A stretch of DNA of 32,049 nucleotides from Lutibacter flavus (lineage in GTDB: Bacteria > Bacteroidota > Bacteroidia > Flavobacteriales > Flavobacteriaceae), in NCBI GenBank assembly GCA_945903795.1, contig CAMDPE010000010.1, forward strand, positions 1 through 32,049, written 5' to 3'. Below, one piece after another: positions 11,106 through 20,311 of the stretch; within the stretch, counting starts at the first letter, position 1, and each line of letters starts with the position of its first letter. Under the pieces are notes generated by a model. That model was not told the DNA's origin. It was given only the letters and a program-made list of their open reading frames with translations, and ran no database searches. Made by a program: the position numbers and the translations under genes.

Positions 11106-11870
11106 TTAATCTCTGATGCCACTCACAAATTTATTTATGTTGGCTGTGCCATTTTCAGCCAAATATTTTACAAATGCCGATCCAATAATGGCGCCTTTTG
11201 CATATTTGGTCGCTTGTTTAAACGTTTCTGCATTTGAAATTCCAAATCCGACAATTTGAGGCGACTTTAAATTTAAATCGGCAATGCGTTTAAAATAATC
11301 ATCCTGCGTTTTTCCGAAAGCATTTTGCGAACCAGTAACACTGGCCGAACTCACCATATAAATGAATCCGTCAGAAATTTTATCGATAAACTGAATGCGT
11401 TCCAATGAGGTTTGTGGCGTTATTAAAAACACATTGATCAAACCATATTTTTCAAAAACGGCTTTATAATTGTCGTTGTATACATCAACCGGCAAATCGG
11501 GAATAATCAATCCGTCGATGCCAATTTCAGCGCATTTTTTGCAAAAATTTTCAATCCCAAACTGCATCATCGGATTGAAATAACCCATAATAATTAAGGG
11601 AATTGTGACGGTTTTACGAATATCTTTTAGCTGATTGAACAAGACTTCTGATGTCATTCCGTTGTCCAATGCTTTTGTGGAACTCGCCTGAATGGTTGGT
11701 CCGTCGGCCAACGGATCGCTAAAAGGCAAACCTATTTCAATAAAATCGACACCGCTTTTTTCCAAATTTTCAATAATTGAAACCGTGTCATTTATTTTCG
11801 GAAAACCGGCCGTAAAATAAATGGACAACAATTTTTTATTTTCCTTTAATTTTTGATTTATTCTGTTCAT
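11106..11870 (-). CDS. trpA: tryptophan synthase alpha chain
   Basis: 254 residues, full length. It cleaves indole-3-glycerol phosphate to indole and glyceraldehyde 3-phosphate, and indole is channelled to TrpB. The catalytic acid and base are visible as E45 in FIEIGLPFSDPLADGPTIQ and D56 in the same stretch. The phosphate-binding end of the barrel is represented by VGFGISNAET and GAIIGSAFVKYL. The start codon lies 3 bases after the trpB stop codon, so the two subunits are probably translated together. It is the seventh and last biosynthetic gene of the operon. The family match is unambiguous. Confidence 0.97.
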   Translation of the reverse strand: MNRINQKLKENKKLLSIYFTAGFPKINDTVSIIENLEKSGVDFIEIGLPFSDPLADGPTIQASSTKALDNGMTSEVLFNQLKDIRKTVTIPLIIMGYFNPMMQFGIENFCKKCAEIGIDGLIIPDLPVDVYNDNYKAVFEKYGLINVFLITPQTSLERIQFIDKISDGFIYMVSSASVTGSQNAFGKTQDDYFKRIADLNLKSPQIVGFGISNAETFKQATKYAKGAIIGSAFVKYLAENGTANINKFVSGIRD

Positions 11871-11873
11871 TTT

Positions 11874-13055
11874 CTACAACTTAAAATATTTAACATACGT
11901 ATCCAAATCCTTATCGCCTCTTCCCGATAAATTCAACACCACCACATCGCTTTCCTTAAATTTTTTCATATTGAAAACCGCCAATGCGTGGGCACTTTCA
12001 ATCGCCGGAATAATGCCTTCCAATTTACACAGTTCCAAACCTGCTGTCATCGCTTCTGCATCGGTAATTGATATAAATTCCGCGCGTTTTGATCTGTATA
12101 AATGTGCATGTAAAGGTCCGATTCCCGGATAATCCAATCCTGCGGAAATAGAATAAGGCTCCGTTATTTGTCCGTCCTCACTTTGCATCAACAACGTTTT
12201 ACTTCCGTGAATCACGCCTTCTTTTCCCAAAATACTGGTTGCAGCGCTTTCACCTGAATGAATTCCCAAACCGGCTGCTTCAACAGCAATTAAATTCACT
12301 TTTTCTTCATCCAAATAATGATAAAAAGCACCTGCGGCATTGCTTCCGCCACCCACACAGGCAATCACATAATCGGGATTTTCCCTGTTCTCATGCACTT
12401 TCAATTGCTTTTTAATTTCTTCTGAAATCACCGATTGAAAACGTGCCACCATATCGGGATATGGGTGCGGCCCAACGACCGAACCAATGATGTAATGTGT
12501 GTTTACCGGATTGTTGATCCAATCGCGGATTGCTTCATTTGTGGCGTCTTTTAGCGTTCTGCTGCCCGACAATGCCGGCACCACTTTAGCGCCCAACATT
12601 TTCATTCGGGCCACATTTGGCGCTTGACGCGCTATGTCAATTTCACCCATATATACCACGCATTCAATGCCCATCAACGCGCAAACCGTAGCGGTTGCAA
12701 CACCGTGCTGCCCTGCGCCAGTTTCGGCTATCACTCTGGTTTTCCCCAACTTTTTCGCCACCAATATTTGTCCGATGGTGTTGTTTATCTTATGGGCGCC
12801 GGTATGACACAAATCTTCTCGTTTTAAGTAAATTTTTGTCTGGTACTTTTCCGAAAGTCTTTTTGCAAAATACAGCGGCGTTGGCCTGCCTACATATTCC
12901 TTCAGCAATTCCTGAAATTCTTTCTGAAAAGAAGGCTCTTGCATAATTTTCAAATAATTATCCTCTAATTCTTTCACATTCGGATACAGCATTTCGGGGA
13001 TAAAAGCCCCGCCAAATTCCCCGTAATAACCTTTCTTGTCTACAAAATAACTCAT
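11874..13055 (-). CDS. trpB: tryptophan synthase beta chain
   Basis: 393 residues, normal length for TrpB1. It condenses indole with serine to give tryptophan using pyridoxal phosphate. The PLP lysine is K89 in [13 protein letters not shown]; the phosphate-binding glycine loop is [12 protein letters not shown]; the conserved [10 protein letters not shown] and LSGRGDKD segments are present. It forms the alpha2-beta2 complex with TrpA. Its ATG overlaps the trpF stop codon in an ATGA arrangement (4 bases shared), typical of coupled translation. It carries the N-terminal [15 protein letters not shown] of the TrpB1 type that partners TrpA. Confidence 0.97.
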
Positions 13056-13660
13056 ACTAATAAGCTTTTAAATTCTTTAATTTCTTTGATATTTTTCAAC
13101 CCGGGTTCCAATTCAAATCCGCTGTTGATGTCGATTCCCAAAAATGCGGGATGCTTCATTTTCTTAATTTCTGCCGAATCATTTTTACTGATGCCACCGC
13201 TCAATAAAAAAGGTGTTTTGCCTGTATAATTTTGAAGCAACTCCCAATTGAATTTGATGCCATTTCCTCCGTAATTGTTCCCTTTTGTGTCGAATAAAAA
13301 AAGAGAAACACACTTTTCAAAAGGTTTTATTGCTGAAAAATCAAAATTTTCATCGACAGAAAATGCCTTGATGATTTTTATGTTTTTTGCTACTAGTTTT
13401 TCGCAATATTCCGAAGTTTCATTGCCGTGCAATTGAACAAAATCCAATGTGTGTTTGTTTGTTTTTTCAATAATTTCTTCGATGGTTTCATTTACAAAAA
13501 CGCCCACTTTTTTTATGGTTGAAGGAATTTCAATTTGCGGAAAATCAGCCACATAGCGTTTTGATTGCCCGTAAAATATAAATCCGATATAATCCGGTTT
13601 CAAAGCCAATAAGCCTGAAATATTTTCTTTGTCCTGCATACCGCAAACTTTAATCTTCAT
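13052..13660 (-). CDS. trpF: phosphoribosylanthranilate isomerase
   Basis: 202 residues, a single TIM barrel. It converts phosphoribosylanthranilate to CdRP by an Amadori rearrangement. The general base Cys is in IKVCGM (C7) and the general acid Asp is in GIDINSGFE near residue 175; DFVQLHGNE and FLLSGGI are conserved barrel-loop motifs. It is a stand-alone enzyme, not fused to TrpC as in Escherichia coli. It starts 1 base after the trpC stop and overlaps trpB by 4 bases. Confidence 0.95.
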
Positions 13661-13661
13661 A

Positions 13662-14447
13662 TTACCTGATTTGAGAAATAAATTCCAAACACGCCAATCC
13701 TGGATCTTCCGTTTTCATAAAAGTTTCGCCAATTAAAAACCCTTGAAACCCGCATTCTTTAAGTCCGGTTATAATTCTTGGGTCGCTGATGCCACTTTCA
13801 GAAACTTTGATGCAATTCTCCGGAATGTTTTTTATCAATGCAATAGAATGCTCTAAATCCACTTCAAAAGTTTTAAGATTCCGATTGTTGATGCCAATGA
13901 TTTTATGGTTCAAGTCAATTTTATCCAATTCTTCCTGGTTATGCACTTCATACAACACTTCCATCCCCAAATCTTCGGCCAACTTGCCGTAATTTATCAA
14001 TTCCTCTTTTGTCAAACAGGCCGCAATCAGCAAAATAGCATCTGCGCCAATCGCTTTTGCTTCCACAATTTGAAATCCGTCCACAATAAAATCCTTTCTT
14101 AAAATCGGAATGGTTTCATTTACGGCACGTGCCTGAATTAAATCGACAATGCTTCCACCGAAAAATTCCGTTTCGGTCAAAATAGATTGTGCGGCAACAT
14201 TGGCATCCAAATAACCTTGAGTTACCTCACCAATCGACACTTTATCGTTGATAATTCCTTTTGAAGGCGATTTTCTTTTGAACTCGGCAATAATTCCTGT
14301 TGAATTTACAGCGGTCAGCGCTTTTTTCAAAGAAATTGGCGTGCGGTTAAAATTTGGGCTTTTCACCAATTTTTCCAAGGAAACTTCACGCATCAATTTG
14401 GCGACTTCCAGCTTTTTATGGGCGATTATTTTATCTAATATGTTCAT
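13662..14447 (-). CDS. trpC: indole-3-glycerol phosphate synthase
   Basis: 261 residues. It closes the indole ring of CdRP. The catalytic lysine region IIAEFKRKSPSKGII, the second lysine in ILRKDFIVDGFQI, the asparagine in GINNRNLKTF and the SESGI phosphate loop are all present. The N-terminal helix LDKIIAHKKLEVAKL is the usual cap of this family. It is a separate protein here, with trpF directly following after 1 base and trpD 35 bases before it. Confidence 0.96.
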   Translation of the reverse strand: MNILDKIIAHKKLEVAKLMREVSLEKLVKSPNFNRTPISLKKALTAVNSTGIIAEFKRKSPSKGIINDKVSIGEVTQGYLDANVAAQSILTETEFFGGSIVDLIQARAVNETIPILRKDFIVDGFQIVEAKAIGADAILLIAACLTKEELINYGKLAEDLGMEVLYEVHNQEELDKIDLNHKIIGINNRNLKTFEVDLEHSIALIKNIPENCIKVSESGISDPRIITGLKECGFQGFLIGETFMKTEDPGLACLEFISQIR

Positions 14448-14482
14448 TTCTTATTAAAATTAAATGATTGAAAAAGTGAAGA

Positions 14483-15472
14483 TTAAAAGTTAACTAATTT
14501 TTGCAAACTTTCTTTTGCCTTCAATCCGAACAAGGAATCTTTGGCTTCTTCAAATGCCGTTTCAAACGATTTGTTGTTGTCAATTATTTTTAATGCGAAT
14601 GCGGCATTTGCCAACACTGCATTATTTTGGGCATCGGTTCCTTCGCCGTTTAAGATGGAACTGAAAATTTCGGCGGCTTCTTTCACCGTATTTCCTCCGA
14701 AGATATCGGACTGGTTTAATCTTTTCAATCCCAATTCTTCGGGCGTGATCAGTTGTTCATTTTCTTTGGTAAATAATTTGAATCCGCTTGTCAACGCAAT
14801 TTCGTCATAGCCGTCCAAACTGTAAACGATGCCGTAATTTGTGCTTGTTTTTTGCAGCAAATAATTGTAAATTCTCGCCACTTCCAGGTTGAAAACACCC
14901 ACCATCTGATTTTGTGGCCGACTCGGATTTACCAGTGGCCCCAACATATTGAAAAATGTTTTCACGCCCAGCTCTTTTCTCACCGGACCAACAGCTTTCA
15001 TCGCCGGATGAAATAAAGGCGCATGCAAAAAACAAATATTGGCACGCTCCATCTGGCGTTTTAAAATAGCTTCATCATTGGTAAATTTATAACCCAGAAA
15101 CTCGAGCATATTTGAGGAACCGCTAACGGAAGAAACACCATAATTTCCGTGCTTGGCCACTTTATTTCCGGTGCCGGCAACAATAAATGAAGTTAAGGTT
15201 GAAATGTTAAATGTGTTTTTACCGTCGCCGCCCGTTCCGCATAAATCGATCGTGTTAAATTCCGATAAATCAACTTTTACCGCCAAATCCAGCAACGCTT
15301 CCTGAAAACCGGAAAGTTCTTCCACAGATATCGGCCGCATCATAAAAACGGTCAAAAATGACGCCATTTGCGAAGCGTTGTAGCTGTTGTTCGCAATTTG
15401 CACAAGCACTTCGCTTGCTTCGGCTTTTGTTAAATATTGCTGTTCAATTAATTTACTTAATATCGTTTTCAT
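14483..15472 (-). CDS. trpD: anthranilate phosphoribosyltransferase
   Basis: 329 residues from the chosen start. It joins anthranilate to PRPP. The PRPP and anthranilate loop CGTGGDGKNTFNIST is near residue 76, and KHGNYGVSS and HPAMKAVGPVRKELG are further signatures. The frame is open 28 codons upstream (to 15556), but that extension would lie inside trpG and has no similarity to TrpD. The ATG at 15472 gives the normal N-terminus MKTILSKLIEQQYLTKAEA and overlaps the trpG stop as ATGA, so it is preferred. Confidence 0.95.
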   Translation of the reverse strand: MKTILSKLIEQQYLTKAEASEVLVQIANNSYNASQMASFLTVFMMRPISVEELSGFQEALLDLAVKVDLSEFNTIDLCGTGGDGKNTFNISTLTSFIVAGTGNKVAKHGNYGVSSVSGSSNMLEFLGYKFTNDEAILKRQMERANICFLHAPLFHPAMKAVGPVRKELGVKTFFNMLGPLVNPSRPQNQMVGVFNLEVARIYNYLLQKTSTNYGIVYSLDGYDEIALTSGFKLFTKENEQLITPEELGLKRLNQSDIFGGNTVKEAAEIFSSILNGEGTDAQNNAVLANAAFALKIIDNNKSFETAFEEAKDSLFGLKAKESLQKLVNF

Positions 15473-16047
15473 ATTGCGTTTGCTTCTATAAAATTTCTGA
15501 CAATTTGTTCGCCAATAGGTGTTAAAATAGATTCTGGATGGTATTGAACCGCACAAATATTGTACTTTTTATGTTGCAATGACATCACCGATCCAAATTC
15601 ATCAACCGCGGTAATTTCCAATTCTTCGGGAAAATCACATAAGGAAGCAATCCAGGAATGATAACGCGCCGCTTCAAATTCCGCAGGAATATTTTTGTAA
15701 ATAACGGCATCCGGACTTTTAACTTTCATGGTGGTGGCAACGCCGTGAAATACATTTTCCAAATTCTCCAGCGAACCTCCAAATACTTCAGTGATGGCCT
15801 GCAAACCCAAACAAACGCCAAAAATTGGTTTTGTTGCGGCGTAGGTTTTAATCACTTCTTTTAAAATTCCGGCCTCATCGGGAATTCCGGGTCCGGGAGA
15901 AAGCATGATGATATCGTATTTTCCAACTGCTTCAACCGTAATTTCGTCATTTCTAAAAACCGTAGGATATTCGCCCGTAATTTTCTCGACCAAGTGTACC
16001 AAATTGTAGGTAAATGAATCGTAATTATCTATAATTATAATTTTCAT
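15469..16047 (-). CDS. trpG: anthranilate synthase component II (glutamine amidotransferase)
   Basis: 192 residues, class I amidotransferase. It supplies ammonia from glutamine to TrpE. The triad is visible: C79 in FGVCLGLQAI, H170 and E172 in QYHPESIL; the oxyanion-hole segment is LSPGPGIPDE. The IDNYDSFTYNLVH start is characteristic. It is located 3 bases after trpE and overlaps trpD by 4 bases. Such proteins may also serve folate synthesis as PabA; no separate pabA is visible in this window, so dual use cannot be judged. Confidence 0.95.
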   Translation of the reverse strand: MKIIIIDNYDSFTYNLVHLVEKITGEYPTVFRNDEITVEAVGKYDIIMLSPGPGIPDEAGILKEVIKTYAATKPIFGVCLGLQAITEVFGGSLENLENVFHGVATTMKVKSPDAVIYKNIPAEFEAARYHSWIASLCDFPEELEITAVDEFGSVMSLQHKKYNICAVQYHPESILTPIGEQIVRNFIEANAI

Positions 16048-16050
16048 GAT

Positions 16051-17442
16051 TTATATTTTTTCTGCCAAAATAACCGCCTTTTTTAGCGCAGCTAATTTGT
16101 TATTTACTTCCTGTAATTCTCCTTCTTCGGTTGAATTGATCACAATTCCAGCGCCTGCCTGATAAAACAAGGTGTTGTTTTTACTCACAAAAGAACGAAT
16201 GGCAATGGCCAAATTCACCGTATTGTTTAAACCTATAAATCCGACAGCGCCGCCGTAAAATCCGCGGGTCTGGTTTTCATACGTATCAATTAATTCCATC
16301 GCTTTAAACTTTGGCGCGCCGCTTAACGTTCCTGCAGGAAAAGTGTCACCCACAATTTCAATGGCTTTCCCAATAGGTTTTCCCTGAACGGTTGACACCA
16401 AATGAATCACGTGGCTAAAATATTGCACTTCTTTAAACACTTCAACGCTTACGTTGCTCGCGTGTTTGCTTAAATCATTTCTCGCCAAATCAACCAACAT
16501 CACATGTTCGGCATTTTCCTTTTTGTCTTTCGATAATTTTTCACCCAGCAAAATATCCTGCGCCATAATTCCAGTGCGTTTAAACGTTCCTGCAATCGGG
16601 TTGATGATGGCTTTTTCTTCATCAACTTTAATTTGCGCTTCTGGTGAAGAACCCATCAATTTAAAACTTCCATAATCAAAATAAAACAAATACGGCGACG
16701 GATTTATGGAACGCAAAGCACGGTAAACATTAAATTCATCACCTTTAAAAGATTGCTGAAACTGACGCGACAACACCAATTGAAAAACATCGCCGCGTTT
16801 GCAATGCTCTTTTGCTTTTACCACATAATTTTTAAAATCTTCATCGGTACAATTGGAAGATTCTTCGCCAGCGGTCTCAAAATTGTACAATCCGTAAGTG
16901 CGCGCGTTAATCAACGTTTCAATTTCGTGAATTCTTGACACTTCGCCTTCGGCAATATTTTCAATCAAAATAAGCTCGTTGTTAAAATGGTTGATGGCGA
17001 TGATAAATTTGAAAAAGCTAAACTGAAAATCGGGAATTTCAGAAGCCGCTTTCTTTGCATTTAGTTTGATGGTTTCAAAATACTGAATCGAATTGTAAGA
17101 AATATAGCCGTAAAATCCGTTAAAACCTTTTATGGCAGCATCGCAATCCACTTTTACTGTGTTGGTGTAGCTTTCAAAAATCGGATAGAAATCGCGATTT
17201 ATTTCTTTACGGTCAAGTTCCATATTTTTATAATGGTAGGTGAACACATTATTATCAGCTTTTAAGGTCACAATCGGCTCGGCGCAAATAAAAGTGAAAC
17301 TTTCCTCTTTACTGTGATAATCGGAGCTTTCCAGCAGCAAACTGTTGGCGTATTTGTCCCTAATTTTCGAATACATTCCAACTGGCGTAATCGTGTCGGC
17401 CAACAGCGTTTTTGAAATTGTCTTAAATTTTAATTCTTTCAT
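16051..17442 (-). CDS. trpE: anthranilate synthase component I
   Basis: 463 residues. It turns chorismate into anthranilate with ammonia from TrpG. The chorismate-binding core is intact: FQLVLSRQF, PSPYLFYFDYG, GSSPEAQIKV, PIAGTFKRTG, HVMLVDLARND, HLVSTVQGK and the loop GTLSGAPKFKAMELI. The LLLESSD segment near residue 36 matches the region that binds tryptophan for feedback inhibition in known TrpE proteins, so end-product inhibition is likely. It is the first structural gene; its ATG lies 23 bases after the attenuator terminator. Confidence 0.96.
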   Translation of the reverse strand: MKELKFKTISKTLLADTITPVGMYSKIRDKYANSLLLESSDYHSKEESFTFICAEPIVTLKADNNVFTYHYKNMELDRKEINRDFYPIFESYTNTVKVDCDAAIKGFNGFYGYISYNSIQYFETIKLNAKKAASEIPDFQFSFFKFIIAINHFNNELILIENIAEGEVSRIHEIETLINARTYGLYNFETAGEESSNCTDEDFKNYVVKAKEHCKRGDVFQLVLSRQFQQSFKGDEFNVYRALRSINPSPYLFYFDYGSFKLMGSSPEAQIKVDEEKAIINPIAGTFKRTGIMAQDILLGEKLSKDKKENAEHVMLVDLARNDLSKHASNVSVEVFKEVQYFSHVIHLVSTVQGKPIGKAIEIVGDTFPAGTLSGAPKFKAMELIDTYENQTRGFYGGAVGFIGLNNTVNLAIAIRSFVSKNNTLFYQAGAGIVINSTEEGELQEVNNKLAALKKAVILAEKI

Positions 17443-17465
17443 TAGACATTAGATTGTTTTGAAAT

Positions 17466-17497
17466 AAAAAAGGACTTACCGCGAGATAAGTCCTTTT
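17466..17497 (-). terminator. trp attenuator (intrinsic terminator in the leader)
   Basis: On the minus strand an 11-bp perfect stem (AAAAGGACTTA / TAAGTCCTTTT; arms 17487-17497 and 17468-17478) with the 8-base loop TCTCGCGG is followed by a T-run (six T in total, 17466-17471). It sits 40 bases after the stop of a Trp-rich leader peptide and 23 bases before trpE. The loop sequence CTCGC (17481-17485) is complementary to GCGAG (17533-17537) just after the leader stop, a possible antiterminator pairing. GCGAG can itself pair with the leader region 17546-17551 as an alternative. Confidence 0.85.
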
Positions 17498-17537
17498 GTT
17501 ATATATTTTAAATAGAAATATAATAGTTTCGGCTCGC

Positions 17538-17591
17538 TTATAAATTAAGAGAGTTCCACCACCAATTAGTATTTGTATTTTTCAGAATCAT
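17538..17591 (-). CDS. trpL: trp leader peptide with three consecutive Trp codons
   Basis: A 17-codon frame reading MILKNTNTNWWWNSLNL, then TAA. The three tandem TGG codons (17556-17564) are the hallmark of a leader peptide that senses charged tRNA-Trp. It sits between a consensus promoter and an intrinsic terminator ahead of trpE. By analogy with the E. coli mechanism, ribosome stalling at the Trp codons would prevent formation of the terminator, while fast translation would allow it. No Shine-Dalgarno sequence is seen, which is normal for this phylum. Too short for automatic gene callers. Assignment rests on position, length and codon content. Confidence 0.85.
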   Translation of the reverse strand: MILKNTNTNWWWNSLNL

Positions 17592-17596
17592 TGCTG

Positions 17597-17626
17597 CAAA
17601 TTTAGCATAGATTTTTAAATACGCAA
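17597..17626 (-). promoter_or_regulatory. trp operon promoter (TTG-N19-TAAATTTG)
   Basis: The minus strand has TTG (17624-17626), 19 bases, then TAAATTTG (17597-17604), matching the Bacteroidota consensus TTG-N17-23-TAnnTTTG exactly. Transcription would start at about 17590-17593, practically at the leader peptide ATG (17591), so the leader would be almost leaderless. A second exact -7 box, TAAATTTG at 17636-17643, lies 39 bases further upstream without a good TTG. It could provide a start with a 5' UTR of about 40 bases. Confidence 0.7.
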
Positions 17627-17655
17627 ATTAAATGTCAAATTTATTTTGCGTATTT
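17617..17655. promoter_or_regulatory. 39-bp near-perfect palindrome between divergent trp and GIN genes
   Basis: The arms 17617-17633 and 17639-17655 pair at 16 of 17 positions (outer 11 bp AAATACGCAAA / TTTGCGTATTT, one T/T mismatch, inner TAAAT / ATTTA) around the 5-base centre GTCAA. It covers the -33 element and the upstream -7 box of the trp promoters and the possible -7 box of the divergent GIN gene (TATTTTTG, 17651-17658). Position and symmetry suggest a regulator binding site; the regulator is unknown. Confidence 0.5.
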
Positions 17656-17672
17656 TTGTTAAAAACTATTCA

Positions 17673-18500
17673 ATGAAAACTGGTAAAACATTTATATTCA
17701 TTTCTTTTTTGCTTATTTTCTCTGCAATCAATGCACAAGAAAAATTAATAGGAAACAAAGATGTAACCATAGAGGACAGAAATCTTTCCGCATTTACCAA
17801 AATAGAGGTGATAGACGACGTGACTGTTTTATTGGTCTATAACGATGAGCAATCCGTAACTGTTGAAGCTGATTCTAATGTGCAAAACGCCATTATTACT
17901 GAAATTAACGACGGATCATTGATTATAAAAACGAGTTCTAAAATAGTGCGCGCGAAGGAATTAACGATTCACGTTAAGGTAAATAAAGATTTAACTGAAA
18001 TTTACGCGTATAACAAAGCCAGCGTAAAATCAAACAATTTACTAAGAATAGATATTCTTACCATAAATGCTTTTGACAATTCGGATTTTAACTTAAAATT
18101 GAGCTCTAAAATTGTTAAAATAAACGCCAAGAAATTAAGCAAATTAGAGTTAGAAATTTTATGCGAGGAAGCTTTTATTATTTCTGAGGAGTCCAGTAAT
18201 TTAAAAGCCATTATTGACACCAAAAATATGGTTATTCACACCTTGGATAAAGCCGTTGTTAATATAACCGGAAACGCTGCCAGTTTACAATTAGAAACTT
18301 TGCACAATAGCGCTTTTAAAGGAAAAGATTTTAAAACCGCAACTGCCGAGGTAAATACTTCCAACAATTCCAGTGCCTATGTAAATACCACTGACACCAT
18401 CGATTTATCGATAAAAAATTCAGGGGAAGTTTATTTATTTTCAAATCCAAAAATTACTTTGACCGAATTTTTTGACAAAGCCAGTCTTCTTAAAAGGTAA
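17673..18500 (+). CDS. exported GIN-domain protein (DUF2807)
   Basis: 275 residues from the ATG at 17673. The frame extends nine codons further to a TTG, but that part overlaps the promoter region and the ATG start gives a clean signal peptide (TFIFISFLLIFSAINAQ). The mature part matches the putative head GIN domain: after the signal, DRNLSAFTKIEVIDDVTVLLVYNDEQSVTVEAD, then repeated beta-helix rungs with alternating hydrophobic residues (LTINAFDNSDFNL, LQLETLHNSAFKG, VNTSNNSSAYVN). These proteins are common in Bacteroidota as secreted or periplasmic beta-solenoids of unknown function. It is divergent from the trp operon with about 80 bases between the trp leader ATG and its own start. Confidence 0.8.
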   Translation: MKTGKTFIFISFLLIFSAINAQEKLIGNKDVTIEDRNLSAFTKIEVIDDVTVLLVYNDEQSVTVEADSNVQNAIITEINDGSLIIKTSSKIVRAKELTIHVKVNKDLTEIYAYNKASVKSNNLLRIDILTINAFDNSDFNLKLSSKIVKINAKKLSKLELEILCEEAFIISEESSNLKAIIDTKNMVIHTLDKAVVNITGNAASLQLETLHNSAFKGKDFKTATAEVNTSNNSSAYVNTTDTIDLSIKNSGEVYLFSNPKITLTEFFDKASLLKR

Positions 18501-18522: not shown

Positions 18523-18618
18523 TGGGCATTCCCGCTTAAAAAGCGGTCGGGTTTTTCGTTGCAATCTTTTTATCGGCAAAAGCCTCAAAAAGTATTTTCA
18601 CTTCAACCCCTAATGCGA
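18523..18618. repeat. flavobacterial-type intergenic structured repeat
   Basis: A 96-base element whose ends are complementary (GCATT 18526-18530 / AATGC 18612-18616) and which encloses two hairpins: CCGCTT-AAA-AAGCGG (18532-18546) and CTTTTT ... AAAAAG (18566-18592). The pattern GGGC-TTCCC ... GGTCGGG ... GCAATCTTTTT ... CTTCAA-CCC-TAA-GCG resembles, from memory, a recurrent intergenic repeat in Flavobacteriaceae. The first hairpin is followed by TCGGGTTTTT and may also terminate the GIN gene transcript. No coding capacity. Confidence 0.55.
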
Positions 18619-18654
18619 ATTAGGATATAAAATATTAGAAGAACAATATTAAAA

Positions 18655-18733: not shown

Positions 18734-20311
18734 TCAAATCAAACTCAAAATCTGGACTACAATAATCAACAACACCATTGCGATTGGATACACCGTGGCA
18801 TAAGCAATAGCAGGCGCATCTGAATCTACCATAGTATCTGTTGCTGCCAATCCTGGCGTACTTGTCATACTTCCTGTTAAAGTTCCAAGCAAAACAAGCA
18901 CGTTTAATTTATATAAATACCTGGCAGCAATGGTTGTAATTATCATAGGAATAAGGGTAATTATTGCACCATAAACAAATAACTCAACACCATATTGCTG
19001 AAAAGTGCTTTCAAGGTGAGAACCTGCGCTTGTACCTACTGCAGCCAAAAAGAACAACAACCCAAATTGCCTCAAAATCTGATTTGCCTCTCCAGTCATC
19101 GTCCACATTATAGGGCCGGTTTTACCAGTTCTTCCTAAAATAAGCGCCACCACTAAAATTCCACCTGTTAATCCAAGTCCGAACGAAAAATCTCCAAAAT
19201 TAACACTCATTTTTCCCACTAAAATTCCCAAAATAATACCAGCTGCAATAGGTAAAAAATCAGTGCTGGAAAGTTTGTCATCACCAAAAATACGGCTTAC
19301 TTCACCCATATTTTCTTTGGTGCAAATAACAATTAATTTGTCTCCAAATTGTAATTTTAAAGATGGACTTGGTGAAATATCAATTCCTGATCGTCTAACT
19401 CTGGTAATTGTTGCGTTATAGGCTTCCTGAATATGAAGCTGCCCCAATGTTTTTTTAACCACCTCTTTATTGGTAACTAAAATAGAACGAACATCATATT
19501 TTGTATCTAACGGAATTTCCTTTTTCGTTTCTGGTCCCACAAGGAGTTTAACCCTTTCTAAGGCTTCATTTGAACCAACCGCCCTCACAGTATCCCCTTT
19601 TTGCAGAATGACTTCCGCTTCAGGAATAATCACCATATTTTGATGCATAATCCTGGAAATTACCGCTTTGGTCATAAAACGAATATTTAAATCTCCCAAG
19701 CTTTTGCCTATTACATTTTCATTCTCCACCACAAAATGTTTGGCCAAAATTTCAGGAAATTGCGAAAACATCTCAGCTTTAAATATTTTTTCTTGTTCTT
19801 TTATGTTGATACGTAAAATTCGAGGCAAAAAATTAACGAAAAGAATAACGCCAATTACCCCAAACGGATAACCAATACCATAACCAATAGATGCTAAAGG
19901 AGATCCCGTAATATCAATAGCGGTTGCCAAACCAGGCGTGCTGGTTAATGCACCGTTTAACAATCCGATCGCTAAATTTTTGTCCACTCCCAAAAAATAG
20001 GAAATCAAAAAAGTGATTAAGCCTGCGCTAAGAATAAGTAATGTTGCCAACATGGCCAGTTCACGTCCGTTTCGTTTAAACGATTCAAAAAAACTGGGTC
20101 CGGCCTGTATTCCGATAGTAAAAATGAAAAGCACCAAACCAAGATATTGAAAATCTATAGGAACAACCACCCCATAATGGCCAAAAAACAAAGCCACAAA
20201 AATTACGGCGGATACATCCAGAGAAATCCCTTTTATTTTAATTCGACCAATTATAAACCCAATTAAAATAATTAGAAATAATACAAAATAGCTATTTGAA
20301 AACAAACTCAT
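18734..20311 (-). CDS. AspT/YidE-type transporter with two RCK_C domains
   Basis: 525 residues in the order of the aspartate:alanine exchanger family: an N-terminal membrane half (residues 1-170, about five helices), two TrkA-C/RCK_C regulatory domains (about 190-350, FVVENENVIGKSLGDLNI and VVKKTLGQLHIQEAYN), and a C-terminal membrane half (360-525). The family's internal duplication is visible as GALTSTPGLATA near residue 125 and GSMTSTPGLAAT near residue 485. Relatives include aspartate/alanine and succinate exchangers and several uncharacterised YidE/YbjL proteins, so the substrate is not predictable. It is a single gene, convergent with the GIN gene and separated from trxB by a terminator. 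A TAATTTTG box (20329-20336, minus) could be its -7 element, but no matching TTG is seen. Confidence 0.88.
   Translation of the reverse strand: MSLFSNSYFVLFLIILIGFIIGRIKIKGISLDVSAVIFVALFFGHYGVVVPIDFQYLGLVLFIFTIGIQAGPSFFESFKRNGRELAMLATLLILSAGLITFLISYFLGVDKNLAIGLLNGALTSTPGLATAIDITGSPLASIGYGIGYPFGVIGVILFVNFLPRILRINIKEQEKIFKAEMFSQFPEILAKHFVVENENVIGKSLGDLNIRFMTKAVISRIMHQNMVIIPEAEVILQKGDTVRAVGSNEALERVKLLVGPETKKEIPLDTKYDVRSILVTNKEVVKKTLGQLHIQEAYNATITRVRRSGIDISPSPSLKLQFGDKLIVICTKENMGEVSRIFGDDKLSSTDFLPIAAGIILGILVGKMSVNFGDFSFGLGLTGGILVVALILGRTGKTGPIMWTMTGEANQILRQFGLLFFLAAVGTSAGSHLESTFQQYGVELFVYGAIITLIPMIITTIAARYLYKLNVLVLLGTLTGSMTSTPGLAATDTMVDSDAPAIAYATVYPIAMVLLIIVVQILSLI

Follow-up and report, generated by a model that had tools for sequence, protein, structure and literature searches.

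We conclude with high confidence, from sequence, conservation and folding models, that the trpE leader of a Lutibacter-like flavobacterium acts as a ribosome-mediated transcription attenuator of the trp operon. The reported feature at this locus is real; it is very probably a trp attenuator that belongs to the ribosome-mediated class and has a variant layout. The elements of a trp attenuator, their conservation, their spacing and their competing pairings were all recovered computationally. Both conservation and the folding of the nascent RNA around a modelled ribosome support the proposal of the initial annotation that the logic of known trp leaders operates here with a different RNA layout.

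The window, i.e., the whole stretch of 32,049 nt that was analysed, carries on its minus strand, in this order, TTG, 19 nt, TAAATTTG, 5 bases, the MILKNTNTNWWWNSLNL frame, 40 nt, a hairpin, six T, 23 nt and trpE (Table 1). All the elements claimed earlier were found at their positions when the minus strand was read, including the 17-codon frame with three tandem Trp codons (17591-17538) and the GCGAG (17537-17533) that is able to pair with CTCGC (17485-17481). The gene order of the downstream operon is trpE-G-D-C-F-B-A, with trpE and trpF assigned by matches below curated cut-offs. RNA folding, proposed beforehand as a check, gave a z of -4.42 for the leader, none of 200 shuffles being equally stable. 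A separate RNA element, a match to Flavo-1 RNA (RF01705, 44.4 bits, gathering score 42), was observed on the minus strand at 18541-18630 of the window. It follows a putative transporter gene (18734-20311) that is likewise on the minus strand.

Table 1. Features of the trp leader and operon, with positions in the window
Feature	Position	Strand	Basis and details
-33 element TTG of flavobacterial promoter	17624..17626	minus	sequence; 19-nt spacer to -7 box
-7 box TAAATTTG, consensus TAnnTTTG	17597..17604	minus	sequence; consensus from PMC9723704
Predicted transcription start, about 1 nt before leader ATG	17592	minus	inferred from position of -7 box
Leader frame MILKNTNTNWWWNSLNL plus stop, 17 codons	17538..17591	minus	ATG 17591-17589, stop TAA 17540-17538
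Three Trp codons TGGTGGTGG, presumed stall site	17556..17564	minus	sequence and conservation
Region 1, CUCUCUUA	17546..17553	minus	pairs with region 2 when uncovered by ribosome (folding)
Region 2, UAAGCGAG	17533..17540	minus	GCGAG (17537-17533) also pairs with region 3
CC, predicted partner, in antiterminated form, of GG (17493-17492) at base of terminator 5' arm	17531..17532	minus	folding
A+T-rich linker, weak predicted hairpin	17498..17530	minus	folding
Predicted intrinsic terminator hairpin, 13 bp, 4-nt loop UCGC, one G-U pair	17468..17497	minus	sequence prediction, folding
Region 3, CUCGC, loop and closing C of terminator	17481..17485	minus	sequence, folding
Terminator U tract, six T	17466..17471	minus	sequence; 23 nt before trpE
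trpE, first operon gene	16051..17442	minus	best NCBIfam match TIGR00564, E 4.5e-122, below the model's curated cut-off; ATG at 17442
trpG, trpD, trpC, trpF, trpB, trpA	11106..16047	minus	five over one cut-off each; trpF below curated cut-offs

Promoter, leader frame and terminator

With regard to the promoter, what had been described as a consensus promoter is present, but its type is flavobacterial, with TTG, a 19-nt spacer and TAAATTTG. The flavobacterial -7 box is reported to lie at -12 to -5 with the consensus TAnnTTTG (PMC9723704), and because of this placement the start point is predicted at about 17592. Of 143 leaders, 139 carry a TAnnTTTG motif no more than 60 nt from a leader ATG in frame. 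When the smallest gap is used for each leader, the distance is 5-11 nt in the 33 Lutibacter leaders and has an overall median of 10, with a second group at about 17-20. The predicted untranslated 5' part is about 1 nt in the window and 1-7 nt in Lutibacter, and the trp message is predicted to be almost leaderless. An untranslated part of more than 10 nt is reported for 87% of those F. johnsoniae transcripts that have a probable promoter, in a phylum without Shine-Dalgarno sequences (PMC6847099). The ribosome would have to load onto nearly leaderless RNA, which makes the timing of transcription-translation coupling testable here.

A leader frame with W(x)W, a lenient rule accepting any two Trp codons with at most one codon between them, precedes trpE in 146 of 149 loci: 33/34 in Lutibacter, 106/108 in other Flavobacteriaceae and 7/7 in other families of the order. 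The complete TGGTGGTGG run is in the leader frame in 139 of the 149 loci (33/34, 101/108 and 5/7, respectively). The Trp codons and the hairpin, whose loss in close relatives would have spoken against the initial annotation, are kept both in the genus and family-wide. Among the three misses, L014 (the Lutibacter one) and L060 are severed by contig ends, L060 beginning with TGGTGGTGG, and L080 shows no leader. The 108 other Flavobacteriaceae genera were taken from 179 with a trpE match besides Lutibacter; the choice was not random and comprised the 28 genera that matched best, a further 60 that ranked directly below them and 20 from the bottom of the list. All 33 Lutibacter leaders read exhibit WWWN(S/A)L. 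A pattern based on the leader gave 33 matches, 25 of them in Lutibacter and the rest in Flavobacteriaceae, in Flavobacteria or Bacteroidetes bins and in one 'Gelidibacter' bin.

At the level of the class, the E-value required of a trpE match was reached in 38 of 119 genomes. The loci read numbered 29; two of them are Flavobacteriaceae and two (L185 and L195) repeat genomes already sampled. A leader frame was found in 22 of these 29 loci, four of them with W-x-W, and was not found in the other seven, three of which have at most 160 nt of upstream sequence.

Two variants of the leader frame were observed. In L023 (Lutibacter genome G017), AAA replaces the stop TAA and the frame ends at a TAG a few codons on, with the AAGCGAG of region 2 kept. 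L036 and L037 (genomes G037 and G052, from another family of the order) exhibit two tandem WWW leader frames before trpE, and a separate hairpin with a T run lies behind each of the two. In their second leaders, the loop match read by eye is UGUGGG:CCCACA in L037 and UGCGGG:UCCGCA in L036, with one pair changed on both sides.

The hairpin between the leader and trpE had been described as 11 bp long. Its T run and its distance of 23 bases from trpE stand, but the stem comprises 13 bp with one G-U pair around the loop UCGC. Three terminator-like sites occur in 17300-17900, where 0.2 would be expected; they include this hairpin and its mirror image on the opposite strand. By the search rule, a terminator lies between the leader and trpE in 143 of the 146 leader loci, the exceptions being L048, L107 and L147. 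Of 38 genomes of the genus, 26 contain the Lutibacter terminator core, each a single time and adjacent to trpE; in four of these it reads on the opposite strand from trpE. A counterpart pattern for other genera likewise occurs a single time per genome, in 47 of 80 genomes of the family, although not all of these sites were placed relative to trpE. We rejected the possibility that the hairpin is a repeated house terminator, because the core occurs once per genome and, in Lutibacter, beside trpE. In four of the 33 Lutibacter leaders (L017, L027, L031 and L035), the hairpin core has the usual sequence in exact reverse-complement form, as an inversion in place would produce, and region 2 remains complementary to UCGC over four pairs.

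Competing pairings and the position of the ribosome

Region 1 consists of the codons immediately after WWW and region 2 lies at the leader stop. The pairing of GCGAG with a CTC of the leader, as annotated initially, exists but is larger: the helix CUCUCUUA:UAAGCGAG comprises seven pairs around one mismatch and includes the stop codon. Region 3 is the terminator loop, extended in most Flavobacteriaceae genera by the first two nucleotides of the 3' arm (e.g., L055). The 2:3 pairing was scored in 143 of the 149 loci, leaving out the three without a leader and the three without a terminator by rule (L048, L107 and L147) and using only the first leader of L036 and L037. In 96 of these 143 leaders the best 2:3 helix begins 18 nt downstream of the last Trp codon, and in 135 it begins 17-20 nt downstream; for the start of the stop codon, this distance varies between 6 and 42 nt. 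The distance of region 2 from the stall site is thus better kept than its distance from the stop.

The front edge of a ribosome lies about 10 nt beyond its A-site codon. With the third Trp codon in the A site, a 10-nt front edge ends exactly at the end of region 1. We used this assumed distance of about 10 nt in a masked folding, in which the nascent RNA is folded with the part covered by the ribosome kept unpaired and a pairing probability above 0.5 is counted. The counts refer to 136 Flavobacteriaceae leaders (33 Lutibacter and 103 others), the seven loci from other families being left out. When the third Trp codon holds the ribosome, 135/136 leaders form the pairing between region 2 and the loop, compared with 52-61 when the loops are shuffled, and exactly the 2:3 helix forms in 133/136 (33/33 in Lutibacter and 100/103 in the others). 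Without a ribosome, regions 1 and 2 pair in 111/136, compared with 14-17 when region 1 is shuffled. The values for the window are 0.99 for 2:3 under stalling and 0.94 for 1:2 without a ribosome. With the ribosome at the stop, the 2:3 pairing exceeds the threshold in 0/33 Lutibacter, 2/103 other Flavobacteriaceae and 1/7 loci of other families, its absence being due mostly to the mask, which covers region 2. The leaders of other families are weaker in masked folding, with the exact 2:3 helix under stalling in 5/7 and 1:2 without a ribosome in 2/7.

The mutually exclusive structures proposed in the initial annotation are supported by these folds: in the computation, region 2 pairs either with the leader or with the terminator. 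Given the assumed front edge, the spacing is such that a ribosome stalled at the Trp codons frees region 2 and a ribosome at the stop covers it.

The following mechanism would fit this arrangement. RNA polymerase would start almost at the leader ATG, followed by the ribosome. When Trp-tRNA is ample, the ribosome would reach the stop and open and cover region 2, so that the terminator folds and transcription stops before trpE. When no ribosome translates the leader, regions 1 and 2 would pair and the terminator would again fold. When Trp-tRNA is short, the ribosome would stall on WWW, its front edge covering region 1 and leaving region 2 free. Region 2 could then capture the terminator loop as soon as it is made, and probably also the GG at the base of the 5' arm, with the result that the terminator would not form in time and the operon would be transcribed. 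What we infer in this model is that the leader is translated, that the ribosome stalls, how far its front edge reaches, that the terminator is delayed and that tryptophan governs the response.

Once the full terminator has been transcribed, it still exceeds 0.5 at equilibrium in 134/136 leaders with the ribosome at WWW. Antitermination can therefore only be kinetic, since the terminator wins at equilibrium even under starvation, and it would depend on order and speed, the loop being captured before the 3' arm is made. In the starved folds, C residues following region 2 (CC in the window) contact the GG at the base of the 5' arm above 0.5 in 126 of 130 leaders, compared with 81-96 when the linkers are shuffled; this measure leaves out the seven loci of other families and six loci without GG in the arm. 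Part of the 5' arm may thus also be held in the antiterminated form.

The outcome at equilibrium also lends weight to the alternative that the leader-peptide logic is the same but the 5-7 bp loop pairing is not an antiterminator. It would instead be a pseudoknot that coexists with the terminator, or would tune pausing, and read-through would be set by the proximity or coupling of the ribosome. As region 3 is mostly loop plus two nucleotides of the 3' arm, the remaining stem could indeed still form. Nevertheless, an arrangement that frees region 2 only at low tryptophan would make sense only if the pairing opposes termination, and the additional pairing of the GG at the base of the 5' arm in the starved folds points the same way. 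We consider this alternative unlikely, although it retains some weight, and prefer a loop pairing that acts as the antiterminator.

An earlier measure of pairing with the 5' arm was dropped, as its control was saturated (136/136 real leaders and 128-135 shuffled). The linker hairpins are about as stable as expected from shuffled sequence (median z -0.11, n=136).

The loop pairing across lineages

The partner sequences of the 2:3 helix differ between lineages. They are UCGUGA:UCACGA in most genera, GCGAG:CUCGC in Lutibacter and GUGAG:CUCAC in three near genera, and GAGAAGC:GCUUCUC, GAACAGC:GCUGUUC and CCGGAU:AUCCGG are found in other families. Over the 143 leaders, which are not independent, the mean score of region 2 against the loop is 15.3, compared with 9.5 for shuffled loops. 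A threshold of 10 is lenient, being reached by 142/143 own loops (the exception is L042), by an average of 60 (maximum 74) of 143 shuffled loops and by the linker adjacent to the terminator in 76/143.

When loops were exchanged among 26 leaders from 17 families, seven of which are represented twice or three times, none of 20,000 permutations reached the observed mean (15.7 with own loops and 12.2 with exchanged ones), the own loop being the unique best partner in only 3/26. The 26 were those of 28 prepared leaders that gave a terminator by rule, L036b and L193 giving none; L037, L042 and ten class-level loci (without a leader, from Flavobacteriaceae or repeated) were also left out of the set. 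By eye, L193 exhibits UGUGAAC:GUUCACA. In L187, L194, L197 and L200, from other families, the target of region 2 lies in the 5' arm of the terminator, as in E. coli. In L051 (Flavobacteriaceae genome G118), UCGUGA is retained at region 2 and the terminator loop is UUUU, which does not match it; this locus represents either another register or a decayed switch.

Within the family, the five core pairs of the 2:3 helix are standard in 93-95 of 95 loci, with almost unchanged letters (L051 and L148 left out). The leader alignment proposed in the initial annotation bore out the conserved TGG runs but not the covarying stems: for the large clade, RNAalifold predicted only the 2:3 helix, without a covariation bonus. 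There is little covariation within the family because the helix is nearly invariant there. No consensus helix was predicted from the alignment of the Lutibacter-like clade, and an earlier alignment of the whole set recovered only the terminator; in the MAFFT alignment A1, region 2 of the Lutibacter-like clade is two columns out of register with the rest. Between Lutibacter (GCGA:UCGC) and the near genera (GUGA:UCAC), there is a change on both sides. On a TrpE tree of 23 loci it maps as one change with weak support (54/15), and it may be a single event.

So little letter change is more than a helix alone needs, and for this reason the CGUGA/UCACG pair (GCGAG/CUCGC in Lutibacter) could be viewed as a binding motif for a protein or small RNA. 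It is difficult to reconcile this view with the unrelated sequences of other lineages, which remain complementary, or with the two halves that differ together between Lutibacter and the near genera, and we regard it as highly improbable compared with an RNA helix.

A shade less probable still is that the attenuated small RNA or the peptide itself is the main product and acts in trans, as do rnTrpL and peTrpL of S. meliloti, whose leaderless trpL the layout resembles (PMC7298713). In the leaders analysed here, the N-terminal part of the peptide varies and it is WWW and the RNA elements that are kept, which speaks against this reading and is still compatible with an added role in trans. Finally, control of the operon by another tryptophan sensor, with the small frame being incidental, is scarcely credible: TrpR, TRAP and T-box are known alternatives for trp operons, but none was found over cut-off, and the WWW run with its fixed spacing would be left unexplained. 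Each of these sensors was rejected, TrpR with 0/26 genomes over cut-off and one sub-threshold match in G003, TRAP with its protein in 0/26 genomes, and T-box with no covariance model match in the window or its own genome.

Wider reading and comparison with known systems

We tentatively propose, as a possibility somewhat short of even, that Flavobacteriaceae, and perhaps Bacteroidia at large, have their own attenuator layout. In this layout, the antiterminator would capture the terminator loop and block nucleation of the hairpin, without competing for the stem; the pairing sequence would drift between families, the ruler that separates the capture segment from the Trp codons, about 18 nt or the front half of a ribosome, would be fixed, and transcription would start at or beside the leader AUG. 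As a compact system with more than 100 natural variants, the leader lends itself to testing whether termination can be blocked by pairing with the terminator loop.

The trp attenuator is probably one of several amino-acid cases, because a His leader precedes hisG and an Ile/Val-rich frame precedes ilvD. Upstream of hisG in the genome of the window (L161), a His leader MNFTQNHHHHFHYRTQVS is followed by a terminator-like hairpin, and a 10-base match links the start of the leader frame, UUUUACACAA, to the stretch after the stop, UUGUGUAAAA (all by eye). In the his leader L153, both matching halves differ from those of L161 and still match. In relatives (e.g., L170), a frame rich in Ile/Leu/Val and then a terminator-like hairpin were seen by eye more than 100 nt upstream of ilvD; the ilvD contig from the genome of the window stops short of this region.

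With regard to the literature, the initial annotation referred to Trp leader attenuation as known in Proteobacteria, which is incomplete, as Actinobacteria have it (PMC1262725) and it has been suggested for F. psychrophilum (PMC9723704). In that member of the same family, strong clues were reported for leader-peptide attenuation upstream of amino-acid operons; the main text of the paper does not contain the word 'tryptophan', and in the parts considered here it presents no trp leader, antiterminator or comparative analysis (PMC9723704). Small frames reminiscent of leader peptides were described in Bacteroides thetaiotaomicron (PMC7366714). A survey from 2010 gave no case outside Proteobacteria and Actinobacteria before its own in Firmicutes (PMC2965389). 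Among the titles and beginnings of abstracts searched, which included few subscription journals, no trp antiterminator was recognised for this phylum. A comparative study of attenuation by Lopatovskaya and others, from 2010, may cover Bacteroidota. The class of attenuator is old. For the layout seen here, with its fixed ruler and its wide occurrence within the family, no description is given in the literature covered. The analysis provides a worked-out amino-acid attenuation switch for Flavobacteriaceae, and less completely for other Bacteroidia, where the sources covered had suggested such switches and not dissected them.

The E. coli trp leader comprises a short peptide with tandem Trp codons, a 1:2 anti-antiterminator, a 2:3 antiterminator and a 3:4 intrinsic terminator, region 3 being mainly the 5' arm of the terminator. 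The leader described here shares with it the tandem-Trp peptide, the 1:2 and 2:3 pairings and the intrinsic terminator. In contrast to E. coli, the terminator loop serves as region 3 (in most family members together with two 3'-arm nucleotides), the 2:3 helix has 4-8 bp, the stop codon falls within region 2 or close to it, the predicted 5' untranslated part is about 1 nt and no TrpR was found. The long 2:3 stem that takes up the 5' arm in E. coli has only a short CC:GG contact with that arm as its counterpart in Flavobacteriaceae. The short loop-based antiterminator that had been noted as unlike the E. coli stem is thus the rule in the family, with the contact at the base of the 5' arm as a refinement.

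The trp attenuators of Corynebacterium and Streptomyces also exhibit double or triple UGG, a terminator and short conserved complementary segments, in their case triples common to both hairpins; these are GC-rich (gGCC-rGCy-GGCC) and belong to another phylum (PMC1262725). The present leader also resembles trpL of S. meliloti, which is leaderless, encodes a WWW leader peptide (14 residues there) and has no transcriptional repression (PMC7298713). S. meliloti differs in belonging to another phylum, in having no sequence similarity beyond WWW and in the trans roles reported there for rnTrpL and peTrpL (PMC7298713).
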